A stretch of DNA of 64,000 bases, taken from contig NC_044277.2 of NCBI RefSeq assembly GCF_004027225.2, forward strand, positions 99,999,725 through 100,063,724, in the 5' to 3' direction. The notes below the pieces were generated by a model. The model searched no databases, was not told the origin of the DNA, and worked only from the letters and a program-made list of their open reading frames with translations. Of this stretch, positions 17,901 to 62,224 are shown one piece after another. A program made the position numbers and the translations under genes. Position 1 is the stretch's first letter. The number at the start of each line of letters is the position of its first letter. The stretch comes from Strigops habroptila (lineage: Eukaryota; Chordata; Aves; Psittaciformes; Psittacidae).

Positions 17901-20900
17901 TTCTAGCCAAGCAAGTGTTTCCTCAACGGATAGCTTGGACACTGGAAAAAGACACAGTCAAGTGTCAGTGATCCAGGACACTGTTAAACATCCAGAAGTT
18001 TCTTTAGTGAAAATCAAAGACCTGTCAGACGAAACACCCAGCCTTGGCAGTGGAACTCCGAAATTTGACATATCAGAGGTAGAGCCTGCCTATTTGAATT
18101 TCTCTGACTTGTATGACATTGTCTATTTTCCATTTGAATTTATGAACTATAGGAAGGCTCCACCCAAACCAACTGGTAGACGGTTTATACCTTTTGGTGA
18201 AAGGGCAAGGTCCCCTCCTGCAGGACATTTGCATAAGGATAAAAGACTGTGCATCAGAGAACAGGCAGAGGACAAGAACAGGAAGAACCATTTGGAAATA
18301 TGTGAGGATTCAAAGGCAACTAACTTCTTAGCCACAGGGAAAGGGTCACAGAGTCATAAAGAAATGTATGGCCCCCAAAAAGACTCAAGTGGTAAGCAGA
18401 AAAGCTCTGTCTACAGCAAGCCAGGACTCTTTAAGCCATATGCAAGGTCTCATTCAGTGGAGCAGTCAGTGGAGCAGAGTCTGAAGAAGAAAGTAAAAGC
18501 TTCTGTCGCCCATATTTCAAGAATCCTAAAAGGAAAGATATCTCCTGAACCAGAGGCAGGGGAAGGTAAGTATTTTACTCTTCATAGATTCCTTCATAGA
18601 TGCCTTCACAGATTTGTTGCTACAACTAGGCTCTGCTAAATGTGCCTTTTCCCTTTACCTCAGCATATCTGAGGCTGTGGTTAGACTGTGATTACAAAAC
18701 TGGCAGTTGCAGGTTATGAAATCAGAGGTCTTCAGCTCCACCACTAGCTGCCTGTTACTGGCTCACTTCAGTGCAGAGTCAGCTGGGTTAATCTGCTGAT
18801 GGAAGTGGCTTAAATTCCCCTGTCTGAGTTTGTACAAAAGCAGATCAGGGCTGGATGGTGCTTTCCTTGCTGCAGTTTCTTCTGCAGTTATCATCTGACC
18901 ATGGTAAATCTTTAAAGCTAAAGTTCCTGGGAGAAGTCGGTGAGGTCACCCTGGCTACCTAAGTTGATGTCACTGGACTACAGAATCTCCTTTCTTCTCT
19001 GCCACCCCTAGATATGTGCTGTTGTTTTGGGACATCATTCTGTTTGTAACAGCTGTCACAGCCTTCTCTGTCGACTGAGAGCTTGTTAATAAGGAAACCT
19101 GTGACTTCTGAGCTGTTTATGTGTTAACAGCAGAACTGCGTGCTCTAAATGGATACCCCAGGGAGAAGGATGGCCTTGAATGACTTCTCATCCTTTCTCA
19201 AAACAGAGTTTGGTGAGCTGGGAAGTGAGGCAGTAGAAAAAGAGCTGTTAACAGGGGCTGAAGGATCCCTGAAGAGGAAATCAGCACTCTCTTCATTCAA
19301 GTTACCAAGCCTCATGCCAAAGGAGAAAGGTATTGCTATTACATAAGTCATCAGTTAGTTTTACCATGAAGTATCAGTAATGAACATGACAGTGCCGCGT
19401 GAGGCCAGTTTCTAAGGATGGATCTGCAATGACTGTCTGGACATGACCTGGACCAACTCATACGATATGAGCCAGCCTCCTACATTTACATCATAACTAT
19501 GTCCTTGTTAAAACTGCCTTGTCTTGCCATTGCTTGCAAATTGGAGTCATCCTAGGAAGCCACTGCAAAGTAATAAAATCTATGTGTAAGCTAGAAAGAG
19601 AATAAATGGAGTATTCAAGGGTGGGATGGCAGATCCAGGGAACTGTGAATTCCTATGCTCCGGTCCTGTGTCCGTGTGTAATGGCCAGACAAGCTACTGC
19701 AGATCTATAAAATGAAAAACACTGAGGCAGGCAGAAACAGCATGTCAGCAAAGCTGAACTTGTTTTTGCCCAGACACGTTTTCCCTGGACTCTAGCAGGA
19801 ACATTTTCTGAGGTCAGGTTAATGCCCCAGTATTCAGCAGAGCCCAGCCAAGCACTACAAAGGGCACGTGGGCTCCCAGACACTGTGGAGAAAAAACCCT
19901 GGACAAACACAGAAAACTTGAACTTCCCATTTCGCCTGGAGTCAGCAGCAGATTTGGTGCATTATGGGCTTTTTCCTCCTTCTGTATCCATCTTTTATGT
20001 CTTCTTGTCTCTTTGTTTTGGTTTGATCTGACCTCCTTGTCCTTGAAATACTATCATTTAGTTTTGCCCCCACATTTAAGCTGGGCAAGAAGAAAGCTCT
20101 TGCTGTGACATGCTCACTCTCTCCTCTGAGCTGTTCTGCTTGCCTTAGATGTACCAGCAGGACTGGGAAATCATAAAATCCTAGAATGGTTTAGGTTGGA
20201 AGGAACCTTAAAGCTCATCCAGTTCCAAACCCCTGCCACAGGCGGGGACACCTTCCACTAGACCAGGTTGCTCCAAGCCTTGTCCAACCTGGCCTTGAAC
20301 GCTGCCAGGGATGGGCAGCCACAGCTTCTCTGGGCAACCTGTGCCAGGGCCTCACCACCCTCACAGGGAAGAGCTTCTTCCTCAGATCTCATCTAAATCT
20401 CCCCTCTGTCAGTTTAAAGCCATTACTCCTTGTCCTACCCCAACATACCCTGGTAGAAAGTCCTTCTTCTACTTTCTTGTAGGCCCTGGAGCCTTCTCTT
20501 CTCCAGGCTGAACAAATATTTCATATCTCCCATCTAGCAGCCAGGTGTCCCAAATTTATTGCTAGAAATAAATAGAAATACTCAGAGGGAAACATCATAG
20601 AATCATAGAATGGTTTGGGTTGGAAAGGTCCATTAAGATCAAATGTCAGCTAACACTATAAAATGTCTAACTTACAGGACTTCTAAAGCTGAAGCTAGCT
20701 GTATATCTTCACTCCTTGTTCAGTCATACTCAGATTGGATCTACATATGGTCAAGAAATCAGGAAAGAAGTTCTTCCTAATATCTAATCTAAATCTCTCC
20801 TCTGTCAGTTTAAAGCCATTCCCCCTTGTCCTGTCCCTACCCATCCTTGTCAAAAGCCCCTCTCCAGATTTCTTTTCAGCCCCCTTTAGGTACTGGAAGG

Positions 20901-23900
20901 AGCTCTAAGGTCTCCCTGGAGCCTTTTCTTCTCCAGGCTGAATGCAAATACTCCCCATGGACCTCCAAGATCCTTCTGGGTTATTGTGTATGAGCAGTCC
21001 TACTGCATCCATGGGGCTGAACAGGGCTCCTACACCTGTGTGCCCAATGCCCAGGGGATTCTCCAACTGCTGGTCAATGGAATGTCAGAACTTTAACCAA
21101 AAATGTTCTTGAGCCAATTAAAAATGCTTTCTGATGTCCTGTGTGCATTTATTCTTCACATAGCCCTCCTGACCACTCTGAATTGCTGCTTTTCCTCTTT
21201 TTTGCAGCACCACTGTTCATTGAGGAGCTCATGGATCAGGCTGCTGCCGTCGGACAGTGCGTGACGCTGTCGTGCCGGACTGCAGCTCACTCCCCCCTGC
21301 ACATCGACTGGTTCAGAGGTGATGTTGGCATCCCTCTAGGGAGTCCTTTACCTCAGGAACAAGGGTTTAGACAGGCAGGAAGGGATTTAGACACCTTAGT
21401 ATAAATTTGCAGGGTACTTATCTCTCCTATCTTCTGCTTTTCAGATGGGACACCTGTCCAAAGCAGCAGCCGGATCCTCATCTCAAGTACTCTCAAAAAC
21501 TTCCAGCTGTTAACTGTTCTCTCTGTTAGTGCTGATGATTTTGGCGTTTACACCTGTGTGGCCACAAACTCCCTAGGCTCAGCATCCACCTCCTGCATCA
21601 TAAGAAAAGCAGGTAAGAGAAGTAGTACCTACAGAAAAGGTATTACAAGTACTTCTGTTGAAAAATGTGACCTGTAAATACCTGTGAGGTGAGATTTCTG
21701 CAGATAGATTCAAAGGACAATCCCTCCCTTGTCTGCTCTAGTTTACAGCCCTTGCTGTGTTGGTAGCATAGCACATTTTGCAGGGTTCTTTTCCTCCTCT
21801 GTTTAGTCTCTCTTCTGGATTCACAGACACTCCAGTAACCATGTGGTTCTAGAATCAAACTTCAAAATCTTAATGCAGAGTTTAAATTAGGCACGGTTAA
21901 GTTGTTGCTCCACCAGGTGTGTGTACACATATATATATTTAAATATATATATGTTATACATATATATATAAAGAATATCCGTAACTGAGAAATGCTGGGC
22001 AGGAGCTATGTATCACAGCAGTGCTATTGCTAACAGTCACTGGGTTTTGTGTCTCCTCTCAATAGAGGTTCCTCCCAGCCCTCCACCCCCTGACATTGTG
22101 GAGGTCTACAAGGATGGAGTGCAGATGGTCTGGAGACCTGTGGAAATGAATACCCCCGTCCATTACAGTGTCCAGTGCAAGAGCGAAGGTAAAGTGGAGT
22201 GCTGCCCTTATGCCTTACGCAGAGAATATCTCGATTTGTGTGCTCTCTTCCCCAGCCTGATTTTAGCCCCATAGTTTAGAGTTAGGGATGAAATTAATAC
22301 AACCATCCTTTAGCCATCTAGAAGTTAGATGTCATGCTGGCTAAGTCAGCAAAGCCATTGTGTAAGTACACATTTGTGTGAATCAAACTAGGTCACATGG
22401 AAGCTATGACCAAAAAGTGAATGGCTACAGAAGAATATGCGTGGCTGGAGCCAGATTCACAGTCCCGACTAATCCTCCCCAATTACAGTTCTGTCAATGT
22501 TATACACTAATGATGCCCAGCAACAACAATCAGCAGATAATATCATCCTATACCCAGGCTTTCTGTACGGTCTGTGGAGAAAGAAGGTCTATTAGAAGGG
22601 CAACTCATTCTATGCTAAACAGCCATGCTTTCTTCTTGCATTGATTATACAGGAAGGAAACTTGAGGCAAACAGGTAGGACAAGATAACAAAAGTTTGAC
22701 AAAACTTTATCATTCCTCTGATGCTCTCTTCCAAGATTTGGTCCAGAGCCTGATGAATTCAGTGGATGTTTTCTTGTTTAACTCCATAAACTTTGAATCA
22801 AATCCCCAAGCCTGTTCCATCTTTCCTGGAGCAGCTTTTGCTGTTGTTACTATTACGAATGCAATGTCGAATAGTAATTTCTCCTGCAGTCACACATACC
22901 TAGCCCTTTGGATTCAACTACTCCATGTTCCTTCTTTTAATTCTCGAAACATACAGGCACTCCTTTCTGGATTAGCATGAGCATGGGCAGCAGCTTTCTG
23001 CCTTTTCATTCTGGAGCTGGTGTCTGTTGGTTTTTCTCCAACACAGATCTCTCTATCGGTATTCCTTTTGCCACAACTGTTTGGGGAGGATACAAACACG
23101 GGTTGTTCCAATTAGGAAGAAAAACAGGAAATAGCATCTACAGTCTTTCACTGCATTCTGTGCATTTGGCAGGAACATTCAAAGTCCTGCTTTCCTGAAC
23201 ACAGGAGGATTAAAATAATCACAAAAAAAATCCCTTGTTTTATCCATTACTTGACAGTAGGCTTCTGCATGCTGCTTCTGCAGACACTTTTCTCTGTTAC
23301 TAAGCTGTATCTGCTCCTTCTTACACATACACACACACACTGATTCAACCAGTGCCCTACAAAGGCATTGACACCTTTGTTTTGAATGACAGATTTTTGT
23401 TTGTTTGAATGAAAGGATGGATTTAATCTCAGGCAGTCTCGTGGAATCGAGTTTACCTTGAGCACAACAGCAATGGCAAAGTATGGGACAGCATCATGTG
23501 AAATGAATGATCATTAAATGTTTGCTGGTGATTTTCTACTTCACATCATATTTCCAGGAGTAATGAGTCCAGAATATACCTACAATTTCAGTTCCCTGAG
23601 AAAACATCTGAGTTTCATAAAAGCTGATTAAACCTGCCCAAGTTTTAAACACTGGGTTTGCTAGGAGGATGTTAGTGGGTAGTTCTGTCCTGAAACCCTG
23701 TACCTCATGCTTTCAATTGGATCCAAGACAAGGGCAAAGGGAAAAAAACAGTTATTTCGCTAGGCTTTTGTTTGGAGTTCTCGATGTATATTTGCATTAG
23801 AGATTGGGGGCATGAATTAGATAAACAGAAACTATACAGAAAATTTCACCATTGCTCTGAAGCAATATTGCCACACCTTGGACTGATTTCACAAAAGATG

Positions 23901-26900
23901 AGTTTGGCACACGTACAGCAAGCAGCACCATGCACAGAAGTTGGCCATAGCAAGTCAATTTTTCCTTCACTCTATGACTTCAGTGTTTCTCCATATTTCC
24001 AGCACATAAATAAAGCTGATGAAAAAAAACAACCAACAAAACCCAAAACCTCAACACACAGACCCCCCAGTGTGACCATCTTAAATGAGTCCTAATCTGA
24101 TTTCTGTCTTTCCTTGGTTAAGATGGGGAATGGACGACTCTTGCTTCTGACATTGCTGACTGCTGCTACAAAGCCAAAAATCTCTCCAAGGGGTTTATCT
24201 ACTGCTTCAGGATAGCCTGCACCAGTAAAGCAGGAATAAGCCCTTACAGTGACCCATCTGCCAAAGTGAAAATCACTGGGAAGGATCAAATGGGTAAGTT
24301 CAAATGCCAAGAAAGCACTATGTTTTCCCTACATTAAAACAATTGCATCCTTTTGGATGCGGGTCCAAAAGAGAAGAGGAAGTGAATCGAGACCAATTCC
24401 ACTTGGTTCAGGGTGGTTTAGGGCTTCCTCCTCTTTGGCTTTCTTATTTAAAAGTAAATTATTTTCTAATTCTGGACACAGTTAGGGGACTATGGGTAAA
24501 TATATAATAAATAATAAAATAATAACAATATGTAAATAAAAATAATACATAAATATATAATATAAATATAATAATTAAATAAAAATCTGGAAAATCTAGA
24601 TTACCCACTGAAGACATACTCATTTTCTGATGTGAAATCATGAGGAAACAGGTCTGGAACAATCAATGTACTGCTAAAGGCATTGATCTATTGGTACAGA
24701 GCTGCCACTGGTGAAAGCCCTGGACCTGCTCTTTGCTATGGACTCAGTCCTAAATTCAGTAGCTGATTTACACATTCTGGTGTTTGCTACTGGGAATTCT
24801 CACCCTACTGTGATGCATTTTTCAGCTGTATTTTGTCTCTGAAGTAAAGAAAGCTGGATTTACCATTTTTTCCACCTATTTGAATACTTTGTACTATCCA
24901 CATGTTTTTAAAATTAAGAACTCTATAACCCCACAGCAAATATATCCCTGTAGCAAAGGAAGCATTCTTTCTGCCAAGAAGTGGAAGGATGGTCTAACTG
25001 GAATTTCCTCCCAGTGGAGAGGATTATTCTGTAAAAATCAGTTCTCAGAGGTATTTTTAACTCACCCTAAATCCTCTGCTTTCCCAGGATTCATTAACAT
25101 ATCTCAATGTGTTCAGCATTTCCAAGCAGATGCTTGACTGTGCCATGGGATGCTTTCATATTTCAGGGAGCACTTGGACACAACCACATGCCAGAATGAA
25201 AGCAACAAGTTTCAGCTGCTGACTTGTTATGTGGGAAGATGAGACCCCATGGCTAAGATGTTTGCTATCATAGCACACAACATACAATCCATCTCATATA
25301 GTCGGGAGTGGTCACACCAGGGAATTACTGAGTGGACAGTCCAGAATCTGTTGCATTCAAATAGCTTTGAGTGCTGCCACTGGGAGACAACCTACAGACT
25401 TGCCTGGAGAAAGCTCTGCTGTCGTCTTTCTCATTGTTCGTAGATAGCGGAGGTGGCTTAGAGAGGGTCCAGTTTCCACATAGAGATGTTTTCCCTTGTA
25501 ATCCCTGTTGCTTTTTCTCTGCAGAGCTCCATGCTGCAATGCAGAGCTTCCCATCAGCTACTATTGAAGATGAGAGTGAAATAATCGCACCATCCGAGCC
25601 TTTCCCAACCTACCAGACCTACGCCTTCCAAACGGAGATCAAAAGGTAGTGAATCCAGCTGAGCTCTTAAACAGCCAGAGCAGAATGCTGCATGTGACTG
25701 GAGTTTAGAAAAGTCACTTTTATAATTGTGCTGCTCACCTGGTGTCATGGTGTTTTGTTGAAAACACCTCCACAGTAATACATATAAACCTGAGATCGTT
25801 GGTTGAGCGATCGTCATCTTGGTTTGGTAGGTGTGAATTTTCTGGGAGAGCAAAAGGGTCTGTTCTGAGCACTATGTTCTGGGCAGCACCAGATATTATG
25901 AAGTAAGCCCAGGGCTATCAACAGATCCTCTTCTTGCTTCATCAATCTTTGCTGCCACCAATTTCAGACATAGGGTTGGGATTCAACTTTCTCTGCCTAG
26001 AAGATAGGCACCAACTTCCATTGTCAGCAGTGGGTAGTTCTCTTGCTTGAGACAGGATGAGCCACCTTATCTCTCTCCAAAGGAGATAAGTTCTCACTGC
26101 TGCAATTGAAAGTGACCGTACAATTTAGAGTCTCAGGAGGATGTGCAAACTGTGACAATAGATGCAATAACTGCACATTGTGCACGGATGAAAAACACAG
26201 TAGGAGATCCTGGTGGTTTTAATGAACAGGAGCTCCTGGCTCTCCCAGGAGTAGCGGAGAAGCCTAACTTGCCTTTGATGTTCCTTTGTACCAGGGGGCG
26301 TTTCAGCATCGTCCGACAATGCAGGGAAAAAGAAAGCGGCAAGACTTTAGCTGCTAAAATTATCCCTTACTGGCAAGAGGACAAGCAGAATGTGCTCCTG
26401 GAGTACCAAGTCCTGAGGAAGCTTCATCATACAAACATTGCTCAGCTGAAGGGAGCCTACATCAGCCCACGGCACTTAGTGTTGATCCAGGAGATGTGTG
26501 TGGGACCAGAGCTACTCCACTCTTTGGCATTACGGTAATAACACGTGAATGGAAGAGGTTTCCAGTTAGGGCTGGTGTAGGGAGCAAAATGCCTATTGCT
26601 TTCCCCTGATAAACTGGATCATCTCTCTCCATCTGTTACAATGTGCTGTCATCACACATAGGATTTGTGATGCAGTTGTTCTTGAGACAAAAATCACTTC
26701 AGCTCCTTGTTAGGTTGGGGTAGGGGACAATTCAGGGCCACCCAGTTGAGATGTTGAAAGCAGTTTATTGTAGTTGATATGTACCCCCATCTCCCATCAC
26801 ATGTAGCTCAGGAAGCCTCATTTCTCCTCTGAATTGTTTCTCACAATGGCAGAAAATGGATCTGTTGAAATCCTCTGACTAAGGAGAAGGGATGATAAGC

Positions 26901-28811
26901 ATCAAATCTGCATTTTGATTTCTGCACAACCATCGCATTCTCTGTCATACAGCTCTACAACCTCCTGGACTTGCATCTGTAAACCTGACTCACAGTATGG
27001 ACTGGCCTCTCCATATACAATAGATCTGCTAAATTGAGTTGTTTCTTCTTGACTCTCAAGGACCTCATAGGATTACACATCCAGGGGAGGATGACAGTGG
27101 GTTTAGAATGGCACTCTTTGGCATGCAGATAGGACACCTCTACTTTCTATTCCTTTTCTTCTACCAGGACATCATACTCAGAAGTGGAGGTCCGAGATTA
27201 CCTGTGGCAGATCCTCAGTGCCATTGAGTACCTCCATGCACACAGCATCCTACATTTGGATCTCAGGTCTGAAAACATGATCATCACTGAGCCCAACCTG
27301 CTGAAACTCCTGGATTTTGGCAATGCACAGTTCTACACACAAGACAAAGTTATTACCATGGACAAGTGCATGGATTATGTTGAAACCATGGGTGAGTTCA
27401 ATCACCTCAACCCTGGCCTCGTATTATCCAATCTGTGGTAAACAGAAAGGCACAGCCGTTGGTCAAGGCAACAGCTGGCCCCAGCAAGCAGTCTTCCATG
27501 TACTGCCCTCTGTAACTGTGTGATTTTGCAGGAGCAGCTTGGGGTGATAGCCCTAGCAGCTAGAAGTCATGGCTGGCATATATGTGCCCAGAGCTCAGGG
27601 TATAGTATTACTGCCATTTGGTCTGATGTTCATTGAGGTCATTCACCTTAACCAGCTCACTAGTGCTAGAAGCTTTTTCTTCTTCACTCTTGGGAAAGTA
27701 ACGAAGCATAAAAGTACCTACTGCTTTTGTGTTGGTCTGAGTGCATTGGAGGGGAGCTTGGCTCACACCAGTTTGCTTTTCTAGCTCCAGAACTGCTGAC
27801 AGAGCAAGGAGCCCTCCCACAAACTGATATCTGGTCCGTTGGAATCACAGCCTTCATCATGTAAGTCAGTCTGTCCTTCCCTACCCTACTAGTGGCTTTA
27901 AAAGCACATTTTGAGAGTCATCAACCAAGGGAGATGCATTGACTCAGAGAGTTAACCTCAGTTGTGTCCCCCGTCCTTGGCAATGCTGCAGAAGGCTGTG
28001 TGGTGGAGGGTATGGAGCTGGCTGCACCATACAAGGATCCCCAGCCCCAGAGATGTCTCTGCTTAGAGTAAGGAGGAAGTTTTACAAGACCGCAGCTGCT
28101 GGTGTTCCTCATCAGCCTCATCTGAAAAGCCCTGACTTTGGCAAGAAAATTCAAATCACACCAAGTGGAAAAGCAGCCAAAGTCATGAAACTCACTGAAG
28201 CACAGTAGCATTTGGGGGTTTGTTTTCCCATATGATATTTCTGTGCATCGTTGTGACCCCCCTCTCACTGCTGGGTGGGAATTCCTGGGAGAAGGAACAT
28301 CCTGAGTGATGCCCTTCATGCTGATCAACTCTCTTCTTTTGGGGCAGGCTGAGTGCCAACTACCCTGTCAGCTCCGACGCAGCCTGCGAGTTTCTGAGAA
28401 TGGCCAGGAAGGGTAAAGTGAAGCTCACGCGGTGCTATGCGGGTCTCTCTGGGGGAGCAGTGTCCTTCCTCCAGAGCACGCTGTGTGCAAACCCCTGGTA
28501 AGATGGTGTCTGTTCTCCCAACAGCACAGATTATGCAGCTCCAGGCTATTGTCCTTTCTTTCTCTCCATCCGCAAGAAGCCTCCGCAACCAGCACAGATC
28601 TCCAGCTGACCTCCTCACCTCTGTTTTTTCTAGGGGAAGGCCATCAGCCTCAGAGTGCCTTCAGAGCCCATGGCTCCAGGAGACAGGCTTGGACAACAGG
28701 CAGCAAGCACTGGTGACCTTCCCCACTACCAAACTGAGGAATTTCCTCACTGAACGGGAAAAGAAAAGGGGCCTGCTGTGCTCCAAGTATGGCCTCATGA
28801 TTGCACAGTGA
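2756..28811 (+). CDS. OBSCN: obscurin, 3' part of gene (linker, Ig, kinase 1, inter-kinase, Ig, FN3, kinase 2); 5' end off-window
   Basis: Obscurin is a giant sarcomeric protein at Z-discs and M-bands. It links myofibrils to the sarcoplasmic reticulum and carries Rho-GEF and two kinase domains. I traced 26 exons with matching phases: 2756-3013, 5363-5486, 5829-5956, 6321-6433, 8297-8465, 9301-9382, 9958-10158, 10720-10780, 11952-12029, 12176-12348, 12895-12921, 13448-13600, 14355-14400, 14964-15041, 15922-18565, 19207-19329, 21208-21318, 21445-21612, 22066-22188, 24123-24293, 25525-25645, 26295-26534, 27168-27391, 27785-27860, 28348-28497 and 28634-28811 (TGA stop). They sum to 2,005 codons with no internal stop. 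The inter-kinase block [17 protein letters not shown] and the tail [16 protein letters not shown] match remembered human obscurin closely. SPEG has the same domain order but fits these blocks less well. Further exons may be missed between 3014 and 5362. Confidence 0.92.
4888..5003 (+). mobile_element. CR1 LINE, 3' end fragment
   Basis: The sequence reads tatttaaaagatgtgtagat, then cacttggcagtgctgggtta, and ends ttccaaactaaacgattctatga. This is a CR1 3' end in sense orientation inside an OBSCN intron. Confidence 0.85.
6321..8465 (+). CDS. OBSCN: OBSCN Ig (I-set) domain before kinase 1
   Basis: Two exons, 6321-6433 and 8297-8465, join in phase 0. Together they give an I-set immunoglobulin fold starting [17 protein letters not shown]. 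The strand-C tryptophan is in VLWFK, and the [15 protein letters not shown] motif holds the strand-F cysteine and the usual D-x-G-x-Y-x-C pattern. The first exon has a cysteine (GECAKF) a few residues from the expected strand-B position. The segment corresponds to the Ig directly before the first kinase in human obscurin. The intron between the exons (6434-8296) holds a 63-bp internal duplication, reported separately. Confidence 0.9.
6651..6713. repeat. 63-bp intronic duplicate, copy 1
   Basis: The stretch from tttgctgagcaggcaaccaa to gaaaggagattggttcc recurs nearly unchanged (one visible difference) at 7382-7445 in the same intron and same orientation. Flanks outside the unit differ. Confidence 0.85.
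7382..7445. repeat. 63-bp intronic duplicate, copy 2
   Basis: Second copy of the unit at 6651-6713. It differs at one visible site (ctgaggacc versus ctggggacc). It does not resemble CR1. Confidence 0.85.
8640..8650. repeat. CA repeat and T-run before a CR1 insertion
   Basis: A short (CA)n/(CGCA) tract at about 8609-8630 is followed by a T-run near 8641-8650 in the OBSCN intron. It is a candidate length polymorphism and has no coding role. Confidence 0.5.
8711..9068 (+). mobile_element. CR1 LINE fragment, 3' part
   Basis: CR1 in sense orientation: it runs through aggctgagagagctggggtt, gttcagcctggagaagagaa, ggtggtgaggccctggcaca and caacctggtctagtggaa, and ends with tctacgattctatg. The copy is 5'-truncated and lies between OBSCN exons 5 and 6. 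Confidence 0.92.
9301..15041 (+). CDS. OBSCN: OBSCN protein kinase domain 1
   Basis: This is a MLCK/titin-like Ser/Thr kinase spread over nine exons (9301-9382 to 14964-15041). It starts [20 protein letters not shown] (glycine loop). Visible catalytic parts are the AAKFIP lysine, the QERDIL alpha-C glutamate, the catalytic loop HLDIK (HLD instead of HRD, as in this family), DFGFAQ and the APE motif (VAPEIV). All essential residues are present, so the domain could be active. Exon 12895-12921 is only 27 nt (beta/alpha-F start, AVGVITYL). The donor after exon 9958-10158 is a weak GTATCC, but the joined codon restores [12 protein letters not shown]. The C-terminal helices ([18 protein letters not shown]) lead directly into the inter-kinase exon. 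Confidence 0.93.
11205..11265 (-). mobile_element. CR1 LINE, internally deleted antisense fragment
   Basis: It starts with aaatcataggctggcttggg and ttggaagcatcatctagttc, the antisense CR1 3' end. It then jumps directly to tcttctccaggctgaacag, a CR1 segment that lies several hundred bases away in complete copies. This CR1 therefore has an internal deletion. The fragment sits at the left end of the duplicated unit described separately. Confidence 0.75.
11257..11528. repeat. intragenic direct duplication, copy A
   Basis: About 270 bp running from tcttctccaggctgaacag through cacgtgtcctatatttatta to ctacatatggtcaaaaa. It recurs at 20497-20763 in the same orientation with moderate divergence. Both copies share two CR1 junctions and non-CR1 filler, so they look like one duplicated block rather than independent insertions. 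Confidence 0.78.
11362..11420 (-). mobile_element. CR1 LINE, short antisense 3' end
   Basis: The sequence catagaatcatagaatggtt then tgggttggaaagg is the antisense CR1 terminal repeat. It is embedded in the duplicated unit, copy A. Confidence 0.8.
15922..18565 (+). CDS. OBSCN: OBSCN inter-kinase exon, about 880 residues, largely disordered
   Basis: This single 2,644-nt exon starts in phase 0 after a strong polypyrimidine acceptor and ends in phase 1 (GAAG/GTAAGT). It opens with [19 protein letters not shown], a conserved post-kinase segment shared by obscurin and SPEG. Ser/Glu-rich low-complexity sequence follows, including [15 protein letters not shown] and an EEEEEG run. Around 17194-17835 there is a degenerate repeat of about 40 residues, six copies, marked by S-x-x-LEG. 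A conserved block near 18065-18160 ([17 protein letters not shown], then [14 protein letters not shown]) identifies obscurin. The end ([17 protein letters not shown]) is preceded by a tandem SVEQ-SVEQ duplication. Apart from the conserved blocks, sequence drift is expected. Confidence 0.93.
19207..19329 (+). CDS. OBSCN: OBSCN linker exon before the Ig of the C-terminal half
   Basis: The acceptor is tcatcctttctcaaaacag. I chose this start because an in-frame TAA lies a little upstream (19146-19148) and phase 1 is required. It encodes [19 protein letters not shown], then [22 protein letters not shown], a basic linker comparable with the human LASFRLSGLKS linker. The donor is AAG/GTATTG. Phase 1 to phase 1, 41 codons. 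Confidence 0.8.
20171..20512 (-). mobile_element. CR1 LINE fragment, antisense
   Basis: A reverse-complement CR1 starts tcataaaatcctagaatggt, passes ccactagaccaggttgctcc and ggcagccacagcttctctgg, and ends ttctccaggctgaac. It lies in the OBSCN intron between the linker exon and the Ig exon. Confidence 0.92.
20497..20763. repeat. intragenic direct duplication, copy B
   Basis: Partner of 11257-11528. Shared non-CR1 words include aaagctgaagctagctgta, tcttcactccttgttcagtc and gattggatctacatatggtc. Copy B keeps the complete upstream CR1, whereas copy A has the internally deleted form. Confidence 0.78.
20598..20650 (-). mobile_element. CR1 LINE, short antisense 3' end
   Basis: The sequence catagaatcatagaatggtt, tgggttggaaaggtcca is an antisense CR1 terminus within duplication copy B. 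Confidence 0.8.
20764..20945 (-). mobile_element. CR1 LINE body fragment, antisense
   Basis: It contains agaagttcttcctaatatct, ctctgtcagtttaaagccat, cccccttgtcctgtcccta and cttttcttctccaggctgaa. These are antisense CR1 body sequences abutting duplication copy B. Confidence 0.82.
21208..21612 (+). CDS. OBSCN: OBSCN Ig domain between the kinases
   Basis: Two phase-1 exons (21208-21318 and 21445-21612) form an I-set Ig. It reads [21 protein letters not shown] at the start, with SC (strand B), IDWFRDGTPV (strand C) and [15 protein letters not shown] (strand F). This matches the inter-kinase Ig of obscurin by position and by strings such as [12 protein letters not shown]. The intron between the exons is only 126 nt. 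Confidence 0.92.
21927..21971. repeat. (TA)n palindromic tract
   Basis: An alternating TA-rich run (acacatatatatatttaaat, atatatatgttatacatata) in the intron before the first FN3 exon. It is self-complementary and may be length-variable. Confidence 0.7.
22066..24293 (+). CDS. OBSCN: OBSCN fibronectin type III domain
   Basis: Two phase-1 exons (22066-22188 and 24123-24293) encode an FN3 module: [20 protein letters not shown] then [21 protein letters not shown], and [20 protein letters not shown] followed by [20 protein letters not shown]. The conserved strand-B tryptophan and the YSDPS end are visible. It occupies the expected place directly before kinase 2. Confidence 0.92.
24497..24592. repeat. 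A/T-only low-complexity tract
   Basis: About 95 nt built almost only of A and T with repeating aataa/taaata units (aatatataataaataataa and similar). It lies in the intron after FN3 exon 24123-24293. No coding or mobile-element signal is visible. Confidence 0.75.
25525..28811 (+). CDS. OBSCN: OBSCN protein kinase domain 2 and C-terminus
   Basis: Six exons (25525-25645, 26295-26534, 27168-27391, 27785-27860, 28348-28497, 28634-28811) end at TGA 28809-28811. The kinase begins [16 protein letters not shown] and has the AAKIIPY lysine, [16 protein letters not shown] (catalytic Asp kept, but the loop lysine of HxDxK is Arg), LLDFGNAQ (DFG kept) and MAPELL. The activation segment is short. I remember human obscurin having DLG at the DFG site, so the DFG here would be closer to a standard kinase. 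The tail [20 protein letters not shown] then [12 protein letters not shown] closes the protein. The Arg in the catalytic loop makes weak or altered activity possible. Confidence 0.94.
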
Positions 28812-34770: not shown

Positions 34771-36303
34771 CTAAAAGCGTAACCGGTACCTGAACCGAAC
34801 ATCACGGACAGGCTGCATTGTCCCAAATCCCCAGCGGCTGATGTCTATCGCTGGGATCTCCTCTTCTCTGTTGACCAGTTCCAGATCATACAGACTCAGC
34901 ACCAAGAATACAAACATTTTAATTTCAGCAGAAGCGAAGAACCGCCCGGGACAGATGGATACTCCCGCCCCCCAAGGCATGTTGAAGTATTTCAGCCTCT
35001 TCCCATTTTTGTAGAAATATTTCTTGGTGCCATCTGGGTTTATGAAGCGGTCATACTTAAATTCATGAGGCTTGGGGTGAATTTCTGGGTTCATCTGCAC
35101 AGACATGTGTGGGAACAGAGCCACCCTGTCTCCTTTGCGGAGGGTGTACTCTGTCCCACTTCCTGTCTTAAGGCTGATGTCCTCCAGAACAGCTCGGGTC
35201 AGTACTGGGGCTGCAACCAGCCTCAGGGTCTCCTCCAGAGCACTGTCCAGAATTGGAGTCTGGTTTAACATGTCCCTAGTGACGTTAATTGGTGGGCTCC
35301 CTGGCTTCGCTTCTTGGCCATTCTCCCTTGAGACTTTATCTACCTCATCCTTCACAGCCTTCATAGCTTCTGGATGTTTCATTAGGTACAAGAGGAGCCA
35401 GAAGGCAGTTGGGCCCGTATTGCCTTGAGATGCCCAGAGTAGCATAAACATGAAACGATCCCGCATGTACTCGGGGACACCGTTTTCTGCCAGAAGCTGG
35501 TTTTGATCACTTATCCACCCACTGATATTGTCCTTCTGACAGCTTTTCTTCACAGACAGCATGCTCCAGAAGAGCCTCTTCAGCCGCTCAGCTTCTATTT
35601 TGTCCTTGGAAGGCAGCATAGCAGAGGCCAGGCGAGGGAAGAGGCGGTCATACTTCCGAAACTCATGGAACATCTGGTTGGAGTGGATGCGATCTTGCTC
35701 ATTAGCTTTCTCCTTGTTATCTGCCCCTTGGTGTGGCTGGGTGCCATATAGCGTCAGGTACCCAGCTCTGAAGACAATGTTGTAGCAGTAGTGGAAGAGG
35801 CTATCCTCTTGCCACACTCGCTTCTCCTCTCCTGAGCTCAGGTTGAAAAGCATCAGCTTCTTAAAGTTCTCCATGGTGGCTTCTGTCATGACAGTGAGTC
35901 CATCTCCCATCAGATGCTTTGTGCTTGATGCATGAGTTATGGTGTGGTCGGCTTCAATGGTCTCGTAGCCAAAAACCTGCAGGACCAGTTTAGATGCAAA
36001 AGTCCTAAAATCTAATTTAGATCGTGATTCCTTCACGATGGCTCCAAAGCAGGAGGGGTCCATCACAAAGGTGAAGTAATAGCCGCCAATCAGCACTGTG
36101 AAAATATCCCCATGTTTTCTCTGCATCCTTTTTAGAAACTCTGAAGTGTCCTTTCTGAACTCCAGAGCATACCCCAGCCAGGGAATGATGCCTTTGGCCA
36201 GGGGTGGCTCACCGGGTCTCCGTCTCCGAAACATGCCCAGGAGGTAGAGCCCGCTGAGCAGCAATGCTATCAAGGTACAAAGGAGAATCTCCCAGAGCGC
36301 CAT
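34771..36303 (-). CDS. CYP8B1: sterol 12-alpha-hydroxylase, cytochrome P450 8B1 (intronless)
   Basis: A microsomal P450 that hydroxylates C12 of bile-acid precursors in liver, and so sets the ratio of cholic-type to chenodeoxycholic-type bile acids. The single open frame of 510 residues is close to the roughly 500 of the family and has no break. It starts with a membrane anchor (MALWEILLCTLIALLLSGLY) and a Pro/Arg hinge (RRRRPGEPP). The I-helix region is WASQGNTGPTAFW, the ExxR motif is EETLR, and the heme loop is MPWGAGVSICPGRFFA with the ligand Cys near residue 451. It ends GFGTMQPVRDVRFRYRLRF, close to the human CYP8B1 end. CYP8B1 is known to lack introns, which fits. A paralogue such as CYP8A1 is spliced and so less likely. 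The human neighbours ACKR2, HIGD1A and CCDC13 follow. Confidence 0.95.
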   Translation of the reverse strand: MALWEILLCTLIALLLSGLYLLGMFRRRRPGEPPLAKGIIPWLGYALEFRKDTSEFLKRMQRKHGDIFTVLIGGYYFTFVMDPSCFGAIVKESRSKLDFRTFASKLVLQVFGYETIEADHTITHASSTKHLMGDGLTVMTEATMENFKKLMLFNLSSGEEKRVWQEDSLFHYCYNIVFRAGYLTLYGTQPHQGADNKEKANEQDRIHSNQMFHEFRKYDRLFPRLASAMLPSKDKIEAERLKRLFWSMLSVKKSCQKDNISGWISDQNQLLAENGVPEYMRDRFMFMLLWASQGNTGPTAFWLLLYLMKHPEAMKAVKDEVDKVSRENGQEAKPGSPPINVTRDMLNQTPILDSALEETLRLVAAPVLTRAVLEDISLKTGSGTEYTLRKGDRVALFPHMSVQMNPEIHPKPHEFKYDRFINPDGTKKYFYKNGKRLKYFNMPWGAGVSICPGRFFASAEIKMFVFLVLSLYDLELVNREEEIPAIDISRWGFGTMQPVRDVRFRYRLRF

Positions 36304-38934: not shown

Positions 38935-40045
38935 TCATGCATTTGTGATATTCAACATTTCTATCTCAGATGCGTATCTGCTGCAAGACTGGCTTGTCTC
39001 TGAAGGGTGGATGTCAAAGAAAGCTCTTCTCCTGAAAATGGCTTGGGGGATCTTCCATAAATATAACCTGAACCATTTTTTCACAAAGGCATATAGAAAG
39101 GGGTTAAGATAGCAGTGCACAAAGGACAAACTCTCTGTGATTTGCATGGCATAGTCTAGTTGCCTACTGCTTTCACAGCTCCTGATCACGCCAACATCTT
39201 GTAGGGAGTGAAGGATGAGGACAATGTTGTAAGGGGACCACAGGACAAAGAAGACACCCACCAGAGTAAGGACTAAGCAGAGTGCTCCCTTTGAGCCAGG
39301 CATCTGAGACATAGTGAGGACACAGGCTATGCGGGAATAGCAGAACATCATGCAGAGGAAGGGAAAAAGGAAACCCAGGGTGTTTTGCACGACCCGAAAG
39401 ACAACTTTCCAAAATAAGTGATTCTGGCCATAATCATGGGCACACATGATGGTTTTGTCGTGGATTCACGTTGTGCTGGTGAAGAGACCATCAGGAATGG
39501 AGAGAAGTATGGAAAGGACCCATCCCACCAACAAGATGAGGATGGACTTCCTCCATGTCATGGAGCTATGAGGAGAGCAAGCATGAACTATCTGCAGATA
39601 CATGTCTAGACTCATGCAGCTCACAAAAAAGATACCACTGTAGAAATTCACAGTGTACATGGCATTTAAAACCGGGCACAATACGTCCCAGGTCACCCAT
39701 TGAGAAATGTACAGAGCCCAGAAAGGAAGGGTTAGTAGCAAGAAGAAGTCTGAAACCACCAAGTTCAGCAGATAGATACACCTCGGTCATCATCTTTTTC
39801 TTCTTGATAATGAGAACATATAATGAGAACAATAAAGAGGAGGGCACTCCTGGCTAACCCGACCAGGAAGACCACAGTATAAAAAGATGGCAAAAATACT
39901 CTGCTGAAGGAGAGTACCTCTTCTTTTTTGCAGAGGCCATACTGCTTGTAATCCTCCTCGTCCAAGTACTCATACAGATAGTCACTCGAATTGGCAGCAT
40001 CCAGCAAGGCAGCAGTGGTTGTTGTTGCATTTGACAAATGGCTGC
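38935..40045 (-). pseudogene. ACKR2: atypical chemokine receptor 2 (D6), broken coding exon
   Basis: ACKR2 is a seven-helix receptor that binds and degrades inflammatory CC chemokines without G-protein signalling. On the minus strand an acceptor (cttttgctcctag at 40058-40046) opens the usual single coding exon. Acidic tyrosine-rich N-terminus (SSDYLYEYLDEEDY), TM1 (VFLPSFYTVVFLVGL), TM2-3 (FLLLTLPFWALY, NFYSGIFFVSCMSLD), TM5-6 (FVLWSPYNIVLILHSL) and the TM7 NPFLYAF motif are all visible and ACKR2-like. The frame is broken three times: a 13-bp tandem duplication (39806-39831, +1), a 4-bp GATA duplication (39771-39778, +1) and TGA at 39466-39468. No in-frame ATG lies just after the acceptor. 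Sequencing error could explain some of this, but three independent lesions favour a true pseudogene. The DRY region reads DMY. Confidence 0.82.
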
Positions 40046-44736: not shown

Positions 44737-45113
44737 GAACTGGGGGTGTTTGGAGAAGAGAAAGCTCAGGGGGGACCTTATCACTCTCTTCAACTACCTG
44801 AAAGGAGGTTGTAGTGAGGTGGGGGTCAGTCTCTTCTCTCAAGTAACAAGCGATAGGTCAAGAGGTTAACAGCCTCAAGGGGAAATTTAGACTGGGTATT
44901 ATGAAAAATTTCTTCACTGAAACGGTACTCAGGCATTGGAACAGGCTGACCAGGGAAGTGGTGGAATCACCGTCCCTGGAACTGTTCAAAATACACGTGG
45001 AGAAGGCCCTTGGTGACATGGTTTAGTGGTGGACTTGGCAGTGTTGGAGCCATGGTTGGACCTGATGATCTTGAAGGTCTCTTCCAACCTAGCTGATCCT
45101 ACGATTCTAAGTT
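44737..45113 (+). mobile_element. CR1 LINE 3' fragment
   Basis: CR1 in sense orientation: gtgtttggagaagagaaagc, accttatcactctcttcaac, tacctgaaaggaggttgta, gtggtggacttggcagtgtt, and the terminal ttccaacctagctgatccta then cgattctaag. It ends about 50 bp before the HIGD1A CpG island. Confidence 0.92.
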
Positions 45114-45491
45114 ACAGGAAAACCGCACGCTGTTTTCGCATCCTGCAAATGACAGCCTAAACCCCTACTTTCGGGGGCGAAACAAGTCGCCGAGTTCAAC
45201 CCGGAGTCTCTGTGTTTTGCAAATCCTAGCTACCCGCGCCCAGCCGCGACGTGGAGAGAACCCAGCTTCCCGCAGAGCCGCGCCCCGCTGCCTGTTTAGC
45301 AGGTTTGAGGGGCGGGCAGGGGCTGGGCTGGGCTGGGCTGGGCTGGGTGCCGTTGCCGTCCCGGTTCCCCGCCATGTCTCCACGCCCGCCGCAATGCGAG
45401 GAGCACCCGTGATGACATCCCGCCCCGCCCCGCGGTGCCAACGGCTGCGCTCTGGATTGGCTGTGAGCGTACGGGCTGCCGCACGGCACGC

Positions 45492-45504
45492 TGGGAGCCG
45501 TAGT
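45492..45504 (-). promoter_or_regulatory. ZNF143/THAP11-type element (ACTAYRNNNCCCR)
   Basis: On the minus strand ACTACGGCTCCCA fits the promoter consensus ACTAYRNNNCCCR at every fixed position. It lies about 150 bp upstream of the proposed exon-1 donor, a typical place for this element in housekeeping promoters. Confidence 0.6.
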
Positions 45505-45589
45505 TCTCCGGCCCTACAGGCGGCAGCCTGGGGCGGCGGGGGCGGGGCGCGCCCGGCCAATAAGAGGCGGGGGGCGGGGCCAGGCGAGC

Positions 45590-45648
45590 ATACGCCGGCC
45601 GGTATTGGGATTCGGGAGGGCAGCCGCAGCGGCGGCAGCAGCAGCGTG
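45590..45648 (+). other. HIGD1A: HIGD1A non-coding exon 1 (start uncertain)
   Basis: The sequence ends cagcagcagcgtg/gtgagg, a good donor, just downstream of the CCAAT and GC boxes. The acceptor partner is at 47465. The transcription start is a guess from promoter spacing. Confidence 0.4.
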
Positions 45649-47464
45649 GTGAGGCGCGGCCCTCGGAGGGTAACCGGGGAGGGGACCCCAGGTGGAGACC
45701 CGGGAGCTGGCGGAGGTCACTGGGGACAGGTAGACGGGCAGAGGCTCGGGGTGGACTGAAGGTGCCTGGGGCTGGAGTGGGGCAGAGGCCTTGTGTGGAG
45801 TACGAGGGCCTAGTGCTGGAGTAGGGCGAGGGCCCCGTGCGGGTCTGGGCGGGGGGAAGGCAGCCTGGTGGTACCCCTGGTGGTACCGTGGGGTGCTAGG
45901 TCCTGTCACAGGCCCACCCGTGGCAGAGCCGCCCCCCGTGGGTGGCCGCACGGGTGCTCCGCGCCTCCCTGCTGCGGTGTCGGCGGTCAGGTCAGTGATG
46001 TGCCCCACGGCCACCCGACCTCGCCTGAGGTGAAGGTCACGGAAACCTCCTGCGATGGACGGATTGCTTCACTTCGCGGTATCCTTCCCTTGTGTGAATC
46101 TCACCTCCGGCTGTCTCCGCCTCTCCTGGGTGACGGAGGGGTGGGGGGTGTGTGTGCGTTCTCAAGTTTCCTTCTCCGAATGAGTCAGGCTAAAATATAA
46201 CTTCCATTTAGCAAATAAGGGTAGCGGTAGGAGGCACAGAAAGGCCAAATCCTTTGGCCTGCAGAGGCTTGCGCATTTAGTTTAAAACCCAGGTAGTCTG
46301 TCTGAAATGGCTGCTCACAAAATGCTGCGTAACCGGGGAACACAGCCACATTTGAAGTGTATCTTTTGCATGTTAATTTAAGCCCGTGCTTAAGTTAAAT
46401 TGCTGATGGCTTATTTCAAGAGCTTGGAGTACATTCATGTGCCCCCGAGCTGTATGTGGCTGCTGCGTGTGTTTATGGCAAAATGGGAACAATACAGGTA
46501 GAGATTTTTCTAGTAGAGACCTTTGTGATGCTGCTGAACTAACTGTGCTGGCAGAAATAGTCACTGATTGAAGAATGATACTTGTGCCAAGCACTAAAGA
46601 AGGCACAGGTCTCAGTGTATCTGCGATGGGAAGAGGACAACAAGCTGGCAGGTTTTGGTGGATGGTCTCTCTCTGTTTTGGTGATGATGGCTCTGTAAGT
46701 AGAGCCCTCCTCATGGCCATTGCTGTTTTTTCTTTAACTAGGGGGCACGTAAGAAATCACCTGTGCTGCAGTGGAGACTCTGATCATCCTCCTGATGTGC
46801 CCCCACATGACTCTGTGCCAATCAAAGGCTCCAAGACTTGCTTTGGCATCTCCGCAGCTGCCATTTTACATTTTTGCGTTCTCCAGCAGGAGTTTGAAAC
46901 CTCATTGAAGTGGTGGATGAGGTGGTAGAGGTGTAGTAGTGATCAACAAGGTGCCAGGTAGGGCTGACCTTCTGCAGCAGCTTGCGTTTTCCCCCATTTG
47001 CTTCGAGTGCTGCTCTTGGCAGGGAGTGAAAGAGGAAAAATGAACTTTCCTGAAGTGAGAGCTGCTGTTACGGAATTGTCTGTGGAAGTAAAGCAGCGTG
47101 GTGAAGGATGCAAGTCCTGAAAGGAAACACAGGCAGTGACCAGAGCTTGTAGCGGCTTCTCACTGCCCATGAGAGGCAGCTGGGATCTGTAACTGTGTGA
47201 AAACCATGGCAGAAACTTGTTGCTTCAGCATTCTTTCTTTTGTCTTGTCCTTCGCTTTCCTGGTATGCAATGATCTTGCTTCCCAGAACTTCACTTGAAT
47301 GAATTCATCTGTATGTAGCTCATCAGCTCGAGTCTAGCTGTTGTGCTTTTATCTTGCTACATGATCACTCACGACTCGTGGAATATGTAAAAGAATTTCT
47401 TTTACTAAAAGTTCTCTTAACTTGGTGTTTCTAAATCCTGAAGAGAGACTCTTTGTCTTCACAG

Positions 47465-52540
<5,076 letters not shown>

Positions 52541-52639: not shown

Positions 52640-53480
52640 CTGGATAAAAATCGCCTGAGAGAGTGCGATGCTACTGGAAGGGGCATTCCCAGCCGGTACA
52701 AGTTCGCTGTCCTTGGCTGTTCTCACAATTCTCCCTCATCGGGGACGAGCCGGGAACGGGTAAGGAAACGCCTCTCCACTGCGCAGAGACCTTTTCCCGT
52801 CACCGCCTTCCTCCTCCCTCTCCATGGGGCGGGCTGAGGAGCAGCTCCGTTCCTCCCACCGCCATAACCCGAGGGGCCGGACTTCTACTGGGAAGGGGCG
52901 GCCCTGCGGGCGGCTGAGGGGAACTGTCATGGCGGCCGGGCTGAGGGCAAGGGCGCATGCGCGGCCCTGCCCTTCGCCTGCCCTTGGCTGCCGGGGCGCC
53001 GTTGCTATGGGAACCGCGTGGGGCTGCGGCCGGGCCGGGAGCCGGAGAGGCCGGGCCCAGCGGGCAGCCGACGGGAGGGGGCGGCCGGGGGGGACCCTGC
53101 CGCTGCCCGCGGGGCCGGGGAACGCAGTTTCGGTAGGCCGAGGGGTGGGGGGTGCGAGGGAGCAGCGCGGCCTTGCCAGGCCGCAGGACAGGGCGGGCGT
53201 TGCGCGGGGATTCCCCTCTGCCCACACACCAGATCTGCGGCAGAACCCCTACGGCAGGTTTGGACTGGGTGCCCAGGCAGGCTGTACGGCTAAAGGTTGC
53301 CCCCTGGCCTTCGCTCATACCCACGAGGCTCGTGGCTGTGCAGAGGCGCCGGACTTTGCTCTTTGCTCTTTTTAATCCACAGCGCGCCCTGTCCCGATGC
53401 AGGCTGCGGTGCGTCCCTGCCCACACAGTACATACAGGCACAGAGGGACGTGGCCCGCATTTCTGCACTGCATCGGGATG
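52640..53480 (+). promoter_or_regulatory. CCDC13: CpG-island promoter of CCDC13
   Basis: Strongly G+C- and CpG-rich DNA, densest at about 52740-53220, preceding the CCDC13 first coding exon. It contains an RFX X-box at 53001-53014. A possible exon-1 donor (tttcg/gtaggc) is at 53132/53133. Open frames through the island are artefacts of composition. The HIGD1A 3' end lies immediately upstream, so the two genes are tail-to-head within about 0.4 kb. Confidence 0.75.
53001..53014 (+). promoter_or_regulatory. CCDC13: RFX X-box
   Basis: GTTGCTATGGGAAC is an imperfect palindrome fitting the X-box GTTGCCATGGCAAC, with two differences. RFX factors drive ciliary genes, and the downstream gene encodes a ciliogenesis protein. 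Confidence 0.65.
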
Positions 53481-54272
53481 GTTGCTGCCCCAGTGTCAGA
53501 AAGGGCGTGCATTAATTACTCAGTAAAAAGCCTTTGAAAGTTTTTACTGGTTGTTCTTCCTAGACCAAAGGTGCACATAGATTTTTTGCTGACAGTAAAT
53601 GTCAAACAGAGGGAGAGAAGGCTGGAATACATCAGAAAACTGCCCATCTTTAGTCATACCAAGTAAAGCTCTAGACATTTAAATGAGTAGCAGTATTATT
53701 GCTTTAATGTTATCACTTAACGCTTAGAAATCTGGGGGAAAATATAAGCTGCTCCCTTGGTGTTTTGTGCCCAAAGGGAGCGTTAGGATAAATAGAGATC
53801 TTCCATCCTCTGTCAGTCCCACATTAACCCAAAAACAGGGGGATCTGCATCTTTATTTTGGAACATGGGAAGGAAGGCTGGATGGTTGCCAACAGTTTGT
53901 GTTCCCCTTAGTCAGTGTAACATGGTTGCCTGCCACACTCACTTGGGTTTGACCCCAACTTGCTCTTCATTAAAAATGCTTATTTAAATGATGTGTTTAA
54001 AAACATTTTAAAACATTGCGTTTTGGATGCTAGAGTGGAAAAGACCTGAAAACTTTTTTGAAGACTGTTTGAAAGCTGTTTATGGAAAAAGGCGCTTGAA
54101 GCAAGGCGGTGTGGTTGAAGAGCCTGGTGGCTGAGAGGAGGAGGTGACAAGGAGAATGTGAAGAGGTCAGTGAGGGAAAACTGCAAAGCAGTTGCTAGAG
54201 GAGGATTTTTTTCAAAGAGATGTTGATCTCTGCTTGCTGTCACTTTTTATTTTCTTCTTGTTATGCTTTTAG

Positions 54273-57200: not shown

Positions 57201-60200
57201 GCCTCTTCTCTGCTTAGAGTGCTGCTTGCTTTCTTCTCCTTTGTAAACAGCTGCCTTTGATCTCCCTTTGATTTGCAGCTTTGAAACACAAGTGCATTTC
57301 TTATCGTCTCATAAATTGACTGTGCTGTTTATGACAGTGCTTTAAGGGGTCATTTTTTTCTGGCATATGCTTATGGAGTGAGCAATTGAAAGTTCCAAAG
57401 TCCAGTTGGAGCAAAAAGCTTGCTAACGCTTTTGAACAGAAAAGATTTAGGTGACCACGGAGGTAGCTGTCTTGTCTGGCTGTGGATATTTTGAAAGCCA
57501 CAGGTATATACTGTAACAACTGGGCTTAATCCAAATGTCTGTGATCATCCAAGCTACGTACTTCTATTGTAGTCTGGAGCAATCACTCTATAGGCCAAAG
57601 GGGTGGGACACTGTTCCAGATAAAGTCACCAAAATGCAAACATTTATGGCCATTCTGCAGATAATGAGAATCCAGGGGTCAATTCATCTGGCTGATTTAG
57701 GTGTCTAATGATATCTGAGGTGCTGTAGGGTATCAGGAACTTCCACATGGGAATGATGGGACACAGGAGACCTGCACCCTTCAGCAGCAGCAGCTGGGGT
57801 CGAGTGGGCAGCCCAAATGGCACCTGTGTGTGGGTAACTGAACCGAGTCCCCTCTTCAGGGCACTTAGTGGCACTGAGAGAGCAATTCAGATGGCAGCCA
57901 GTCTGTAGGCAGTACCGGTTGTATTGACTAGACCTCCTCTGACTTTTGTGTGCGTTTTGGCTTGATGCTTACAGAGAGATGCCCGTGTCTTGGTACAGAG
58001 TGGGACCCTACCCTGAAACTCTGATAGAGCAAGATGAGGAAACTCAGATGGGTGGGGAGAGGAAACTCAGAGGCTGTGCAGGCAGAATGGGAATCATGGA
58101 CTTGAGCCAGCAGGATCTCTACCACAAATATATTTACCAAAGATAGTGTCCGTACAACTTCTCTAGCATGTTTGATTTCCTCTCTGGGGAATGGAGACCC
58201 GTTCATTGCTTGCTACTGGCTAAAACGTGCATCTAAAGTTGGAGGATGTTAGTAGTTCCTGAGGTTGGCTCATAGGTGGCAAGTGCTTTCTGAGATGCTC
58301 TTGATTCTTTGCCTGGGCTCCAGTAGTTTTCCCAAGAACCCTATGTCATGGCTGCTGGCTTCACATAAGGAGCTCAGATCATCCTGGGGCATCTCAGATG
58401 CCTGAGTGCTCACAATTGAATTGAGCCCCCGAGGCCTTAGTGTCTAGATTTTACATTCAGAGGAACCATCACGTACGGACAGCAAAGAGATTGAAGTTAT
58501 TAATTCTCTGGATGTCTTGGAGAGATAAAACCCTTAAATGTCACTAAATGTACGGAAGAATAGGAGAAGCAAGGCTATTTCGTCCCGCTCGGAGGGTTTT
58601 CTGATATTCTTTGTTTCTAAATTAATTCCAAAAAGCAACATTAAGAATGCAAACTGATGCCAGTTCCTGCTGGTGGGGTTCCAAGCAAATCAAATCAGAT
58701 GAGGACACAGGAAATGGGTCTTTTGTGAATTGCTATAAAGGATTAATTTTAAAAGAAAGAATCTCAGTAACAGCTTTTCCAGTTGATGCTCTGTTTGCTT
58801 TGGTAAATATGGAAAGTAAAGCCTGAATGTTATGGATGCTGAATGATGAGCCTGCCTGGTTTCTCCTGAAGAAACAGGTAAATAAGACTGAGTGGGATGA
58901 GATTATTCAGTGACCTCATGAGCACTGAAAATATACCTGTTCTGTGATGTTTTGCCCCAGATGGCACAAGGAAGTGCAGAATTTTTGAAGAAGAAATGTT
59001 AACTGAATAGGTCAGATCATCAGCTTGTGTTCTGATCTGCAGTCTGGGATATGCTACTTATTTCAGTAAACTCACACCTGGTAAGCTCAGCTCATCTAGC
59101 ATCCAGTCATTTCATTCTTTTATTTCTGGAAGCATCTATTTGAAGCACATTACATTGACATTTACATTATGCTTTATTTTTCCAAGCTTGCTCGAGGTTG
59201 AGAATAAGCAGCTCCAGGATCAGCTTCGAGAGGTCCGAGATGAGAACTGCAGACTGTACAGACTGGTGGCAGAAAAAGATTTTGAAATAAAGCAACTCCA
59301 GAAAAAAATACAGGAGGACAGATTGGCTTTCTCAGGTAAATGCAGTAACTTTGTATTCTCACTGTGTTAGTTTGCTTGATGCTGATGACAGTAGAGGTAG
59401 GGTAAGAGATTCATTGTGAGCTCCTGGCAGTGAAATACTAATGTGACATCTCTTTACCTGCTTTGTGCTAAAAAGGAGTGTATTAGTCATGTTGTGGTTG
59501 CCTCTGTTGCACTCCTGCAATGAGTTTCTGCTAGGAAGAATCAAAATTCAGGTTTCAGGTGAGAGAGACTTGTTCGCTGTGGAGCTTGCAGGAATTTGCA
59601 CTAGCACTGAAACCACTTGGCTCTGAACTTTGAAAATACTTAGACACCTGACTATAGATTTAGTCAACGCTTAGAATTGCTACCTAAACTTGGCAAGGAT
59701 CTCAACTGACACAGTTTTGCCTTGGCTGAGTTTACAAAGCATCTCTCTCGAGTAAGGAGTCTCACGGCTTTATTTGCAGAGGGAAGTTCCTCGCAATGGT
59801 TTTACATGATAGCACTCACACATGGAACAGCATGTATGCTTAAAGATCTGTGCCTTCCTCTCTCCTTCAGTTTCATAATCTGCAAAATATGAATACTACT
59901 ACTGCTACCCCCCATCTTACAGAGCTATTGAAAGGGCCAAATGACTTCTGGTAGTCAGACAGATCAAATTTAAGGTGCAGAATATTGTTATTGATAATTA
60001 TATGGCCCTTAAAAGAAGTATAGGGCCCTTCTGGGGTACACAGCGATCTCTGTTCCTCACAAATCTTCTGCAAACTTGCTATTATTGGCACAAAACCACA
60101 CACGATTCATAAACATCATATTTTGGAAAACGTTCTGTTAATACCAAAGAGCAGTGTTGCAGCTTTCTCTGCTTTGTGGCATTAAATTCCTTATTCAGGC

Positions 60201-62022: not shown

Positions 62023-62224
62023 GTGAGACATTTTTCTTGTTCTTTTTTGCATGCTAAAACATAGAAATCTAGCTTTTGAGATAGAGGACCTGTAGAAACT
62101 GAGTTTGATTCATGTTCCCATTTTGTACTTGCTCTTACATCCATGCTTGCTTTGAGTTCTTGTAATTTCTGTCCATAATAGGAGAAAGGGATGTGTGCCT
62201 TCAGCTGTGTTTTCACGTTTGCAG

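Follow-up and report, generated by a model that had tools for sequence, protein, structure and literature searches.

A probable in-place pseudogene of ACKR2 between CYP8B1 and HIGD1A in Strigops habroptila

Results

The stretch of DNA analysed here, referred to as the window, comprises 64,000 nucleotides of Strigops habroptila contig NC_044277.2 (assembly GCF_004027225.2, positions 99,999,725 to 100,063,724), and all coordinates below count from its first letter. Its minus strand carries, from 40045 to 38935, one coding exon resembling that of the chemokine receptor ACKR2, which is flanked by CYP8B1 and HIGD1A (Table 1).

Table 1. Features of the ACKR2-like exon and of its surroundings in the 64-kb window
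Feature	Position	Strand	Evidence and remarks
Ig I-set domains	8207-8695, 21135-21674	+	Pfam
Starts of two protein-kinase domains	9947-10201; 26116-26535, this second one resuming at 27133-27438	+	Pfam
CYP8B1, single open frame of 510 aa, first Met to TAG	34771-36303	-	PDB 7lyx, E 9.6e-173
ACKR2-like coding exon, disabled	38935-40045	-	Putative acceptor AG (40047-40046) at the 5' edge; TGA 38937-38935 as the natural stop
Piece C: ECL2, TM5-TM7 and C-tail, frame 0, 176 aa	38938-39465	-	Pfam 7tm_1 1.7e-22; PDB CCR5 and CCR8, about 1e-26; ACKR2 50% over 129 aa (human panel)
In-frame TGA in ECL2, ahead of the ECL2 cysteine; third disabling lesion	39466-39468	-	Frames
Piece B: TM2-TM4, frame 0	39469-39786	-	Pfam 7tm_1 5.4e-22; PDB CCR5 7.9e-21; ACKR2 50% over 103 aa (human panel)
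4-bp GATA tandem duplication GATAGATA, second frameshift, start of TM2	39771-39778	-	Sequence and frames
Tandem duplication of 13 bp (12/13 identical) at the end of TM1/ICL1, first frameshift	39806-39831	-	TRF period 13; window census
Piece A: N-terminus and TM1, frame 1, without ATG	39832-40045	-	ACKR2 47% over 57 aa (human panel); chemokine receptors in the PDB, CXCR4 best at E 3.7e-5
AGG AGT (Arg-Ser) versus Gly-Asn in the seven receptors of the human panel, positions 1.49-1.50	39846-39851	-	Alignment
HIGD1A, coding matches in three stretches: 47470-47574, within 50480-50653, and about 51414-51463 with TAG	47470-51463	+	PDB 2lom, E 4.4e-20; Pfam HIG_1_N 2.1e-15; match to an approximate query sequence; exon edges approximate

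Several other features were seen in the window. On the plus strand, fragments of a giant gene of the muscle type lie across 8207-27438, and an open frame of 2.8 kb (15817-18639) falls between its domain pieces; the layout resembles that of SPEG/obscurin, and to our knowledge no such gene lies beside CYP8B1 in human. In two stretches, 45097-46068 and 52736-53495, the former between ACKR2 and HIGD1A, both strands have several open frames and the codons are rich in G+C; these are perhaps CpG-island promoters. Beyond HIGD1A, two coiled-coil coding stretches occupy 59011-62061 (plus strand), one having no Pfam match and the other weak coiled-coil matches; we take them to resemble CCDC13, which in the linkage of mammals is the gene that follows. 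The window also contains repeats with a ATCATAGA-type tail, which we take to be CR1-like and which, like the gene content, fit bird DNA.

Chemokine-receptor matches span TM1 to TM7 of the exon, split over three frames. The first stop-to-stop frame (40085-39768, frame 1) covers the N-terminus and TM1, the second (39853-39569) the first intracellular loop, with KKKKMMTEVY lying between two tandem duplications, and the third (frame 0) runs through 39786-39469 and then 39465-38938 to give TM2-TM7 and the tail. The original prediction, that a receptor is recognisable over all seven helices in three frames, is borne out on the minus strand by pieces that Pfam and PDB matches place from TM1 to TM7. 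The N-terminus in piece A has two N-glycosylation-type sites, an acidic, tyrosine-rich segment (DYLYEYLDEEDY) and a cysteine. A match of the same piece to Pfam PF12046 (E 0.00098), whose 19 bits fall short of the cut-off of 25, was dismissed as chance.

Position and best match support assigning the exon to ACKR2. All three main pieces scored highest with this receptor (58, 113 and 134 bits for A, B and C; runners-up 37, 91 and 106) in a panel of approximate sequences of seven human receptors, a comparison by pairwise score within these seven; the short piece between the duplications had no useful match in the same panel. As to position, CCDC13, HIGD1A, ACKR2 and CYP8B1 are described as a conserved mammalian group (PMC6174752). 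Since CYP8B1 and HIGD1A flank the exon, it is the original gene rather than a retrocopy, and a processed pseudogene is ruled out by this syntenic location together with the pyrimidine-rich stretch and CCTAG acceptor (AG at 40047-40046) that precede the exon.

Three lesions disable the exon. The first is a 13-bp tandem pair, GATAATGAGAACA (39806-39818) and TATAATGAGAACA (39819-39831), identical at 12/13 positions. A census of the whole 64-kb window, with a threshold of at least 12/13 identity, found 13-bp tandem pairs at two places, namely this exon and a poly-A run at 30778, so the near-perfect duplication that had been proposed is both confirmed and unusual for its surroundings. The second is the GATA duplication. 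Four-base tandems start 5.9 times per kb in the window and a GATA doubling is by itself common; we count this one as a lesion because the receptor frame moves there, as originally suggested. A gap of 27 bp separates the two duplications, which both fall between TM1 and TM2. The third, an internal TGA reading 39468-39466 on the minus strand, is likewise present as described. The bookkeeping of the frames agrees with this account: insertions of 13 and 4 shift the reading from frame 1 to 2 to 0, matching the frames observed. By hand count, 86 nt (39845-39760) separate the codon after position 1.50 from the end of YLLNL, exceeding the 24 codons of human CCR5/ACKR2 by 14; the duplications add 17, leaving a one-codon difference from human that they do not explain. 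With two frameshifting tandem duplications and a TGA, the exon as it stands has no seven-helix coding capacity, in keeping with the inactivation first proposed for it.

The start of the gene was treated separately. The first frame (N-terminus and TM1) contains no methionine, which agrees with the claim that no in-frame ATG follows the acceptor. As a lesion, that claim does not stand: the initiator may sit in an upstream exon, and therefore the missing ATG was rejected as proof of inactivation and left out of the lesion count. Right behind GCAGCC at the 5' edge of the exon lies ATTTG (40039-40035, minus strand). It might be a former initiator ATG site and so a fourth lesion, or be meaningless if the start is upstream; we left it out of the count too, because telling a damaged start from an upstream start exon needs relatives.

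Could unusual splicing or recoding evade the lesions and leave a functional gene? Starting from an ATG, the exon encodes at most 170 aa, TM5-TM7 only. We enumerated single introns of at least 50 nt inside the exon, and pairs of introns of at least 50 nt each totalling at most 300 nt, in both cases as bare GT/AG pairs without splice-site scoring. Single GT-AG introns yielded 171 stop-free solutions, the smallest of 356 nt, and every one of them (171/171) deletes all of 39766-39466, that is TM2-TM4; rescue by one intron was accordingly rejected. Two introns do open the frame to the natural stop, in 101 combinations, the smallest deleting 152 nt (39817-39750 plus 39488-39405), which together with a possible upstream start exon is what can be said for a functional gene. 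Against this, the 12 smallest combinations, the ones listed, all sacrifice the cysteine of ECL2 together with portions of TM1, ICL1 or TM2. We judged the 101 solutions to be chance, since bare GT/AG pairs are abundant, carry no splice score and, in these 12, cost the ECL2 cysteine; although formally available, a two-intron rescue was rejected as well. A gene kept functional in this way is extremely improbable.

Another rival explanation is a fault in the sequence itself. The exon is known from a single assembly, and two frame changes 27 bp apart are what one local mis-join might give; both fall within 61 bp, so that a single event or a single assembly fault could account for them. Yet the lesions, duplications of 13 bp and 4 bp and a TGA, are not of the homopolymer type, an error class we therefore rejected, and a 13-bp copy with a mismatch, a separate 4-bp copy and a TGA about 300 bp off need at least two unrelated faults. 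Local quality also speaks against an artefact: CYP8B1 (1.5 kb), said to be intact and found open throughout, and the 2.8-kb frame at 15817-18639 are uninterrupted. TRF arrays occur five times within these two frames, with periods of 3, 9, 9, 12 and 12, as against 13 in the ACKR2 exon. The missense change at Gly-Asn 1.49-1.50 argues in the same direction, and an assembly or sequencing error concealing an intact gene is very unlikely.

Residue constraint was gauged at columns invariant among the seven human receptors of the panel. The exon keeps the family residue in 36 of 42 usable cells; three of 45 had been dropped beforehand, namely column 12 of piece A (text upstream of the acceptor) and columns 163 and 165 of piece C (misplaced by the aligner), and with them the figure is 36/45. 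Among the six departures are Arg-Ser for Gly-Asn at 1.49-1.50 and a TM7 change of HCC to HCY in piece C (Tyr for Cys). These six residues fit a recent loss of constraint, a reading that rests on them and on the approximate human panel, and some of them may be normal for birds. The persistence of most family-conserved residues, which suggests that the decay is not old, would also suit a segregating null allele, with the sequenced bird broken and its conspecifics intact. Three separate lesions and the lost Asn 1.50, in contrast, suggest accumulation after loss and not one young null, and we consider such a polymorphism quite unlikely.

Whether the loss of this copy would mean a loss of function depends on a further question, that of an intact paralogue elsewhere. 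A published survey counts one CCBP2 (ACKR2) gene in chicken, two in zebra finch, one in duck and none in anole (PMC3568907, Table 2). The two genes in zebra finch make a second copy in Strigops habroptila a live possibility, in which case one of two copies would have decayed with no function lost. The zebra-finch count dates from 2012 and may include a fragment, and tblastn with the three main pieces found no second ACKR2 copy within the 64-kb window, the best E value beyond the exon itself being 0.03. We regard an intact second copy as a minority possibility; it competes with the loss of ACKR2 in this bird and leaves the pseudogene reading of this exon untouched.

Discussion

The best reading of these data is that the exon is a real, in-place pseudogene of ACKR2 at its original locus, to which we give a probability of roughly 0.88 on the sequence of one assembly. 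It shows one of the marks of a unitary pseudogene, disabling lesions at the original locus, and it lacks what marks a functional receptor, a single open frame through seven helices. A ribosome coming from an upstream start would translate the N-terminus and TM1, go out of frame past the 13-bp duplication and halt near where TM2 begins, at 39767-39765; with translation ending there, no chemokine-binding receptor would be expected at the membrane. Thus, this ACKR2 copy very probably no longer yields a working receptor. Because most family-conserved residues persist, the pseudogene would have been freed from constraint fairly recently.

The exon has both shared and divergent features when set beside mammalian ACKR2 (D6, CCBP2). 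Shared are the CYP8B1-HIGD1A locus, helices about 50% identical to those of human ACKR2 and, again by comparison with the approximate human sequence, the segments FYSGIFFxSCMSLD and LDYAxQxTESxxFxHC. On the other side, the bird exon has Arg-Ser for Gly-Asn in TM1, a C-tail shorter than the human one of the panel, and a frame that is broken twice and stopped once. It also differs at the motif that in mammalian ACKR2 reads DKYLEIV, in place of DRYLAIV; DKYLEIV is absent from the exon, where piece B has DMYLQIV (39606-39586). According to one group, a likely pre-mammalian precursor without DKYLEIV may have a different role in the biology of chemokines (PMC6557524). Given such a form, the absence of the motif is compatible with ACKR2 orthology. 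The original prediction had named the gene ACKR2, the D6 chemokine scavenger. The first part of that name stands, on synteny and best match; the second is carried over from mammals and gives the bird gene at most a predicted role, as DKYLEIV is absent and the pre-mammalian form may differ.

Comparison with other birds bears on how widely the loss might extend. The CCBP2/ACKR2 of chicken, duck and zebra finch bears the same gene name and is presumably the direct orthologue, compared here by name and count (PMC3568907); unlike the present exon, the avian genes have been counted as genes or reported as differentially expressed in chicken. ACKR2 figures among the differentially expressed genes of chicken studies, and therefore its loss across all birds is unlikely. 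Loss of ACKR2 function in this species, or in a clade, is possible on the present sequence. A broader version of this idea, that a whole bird clade lost the syntenic ACKR2 without replacement, the form without DKYLEIV being dispensable and inflammatory CC chemokines being managed without a D6-type scavenger, is one that we put forward as doubtful. For piece C, 27 pattern matches in contigs of non-bird genomes contained no relatives by tblastn. Among the literature matches listed, in a search covering few subscription journals, no title or opening of an abstract deals with inactivation of ACKR2 in birds. A parallel is offered by tetherin, independently lost in galliform birds (PMC10617486): in both cases an immune gene is inactivated in some bird lineages, but the gene is another one, and the ACKR2 case comes from a single assembly.

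An ACKR2 pseudogene is ordinary in kind, and if a paralogue exists, the present one would be a plain case of duplicate decay. ACKR2 and its scavenging activity are described by one group as highly conserved among mammals and tied to the placenta (PMC6557524). A bird lineage with a broken ACKR2 would, if true, be a natural test of this idea of placental function and a pre-mammalian precursor. In addition, where 'ACKR2' appears in expression studies of birds, the presence of an intact frame deserves checking.
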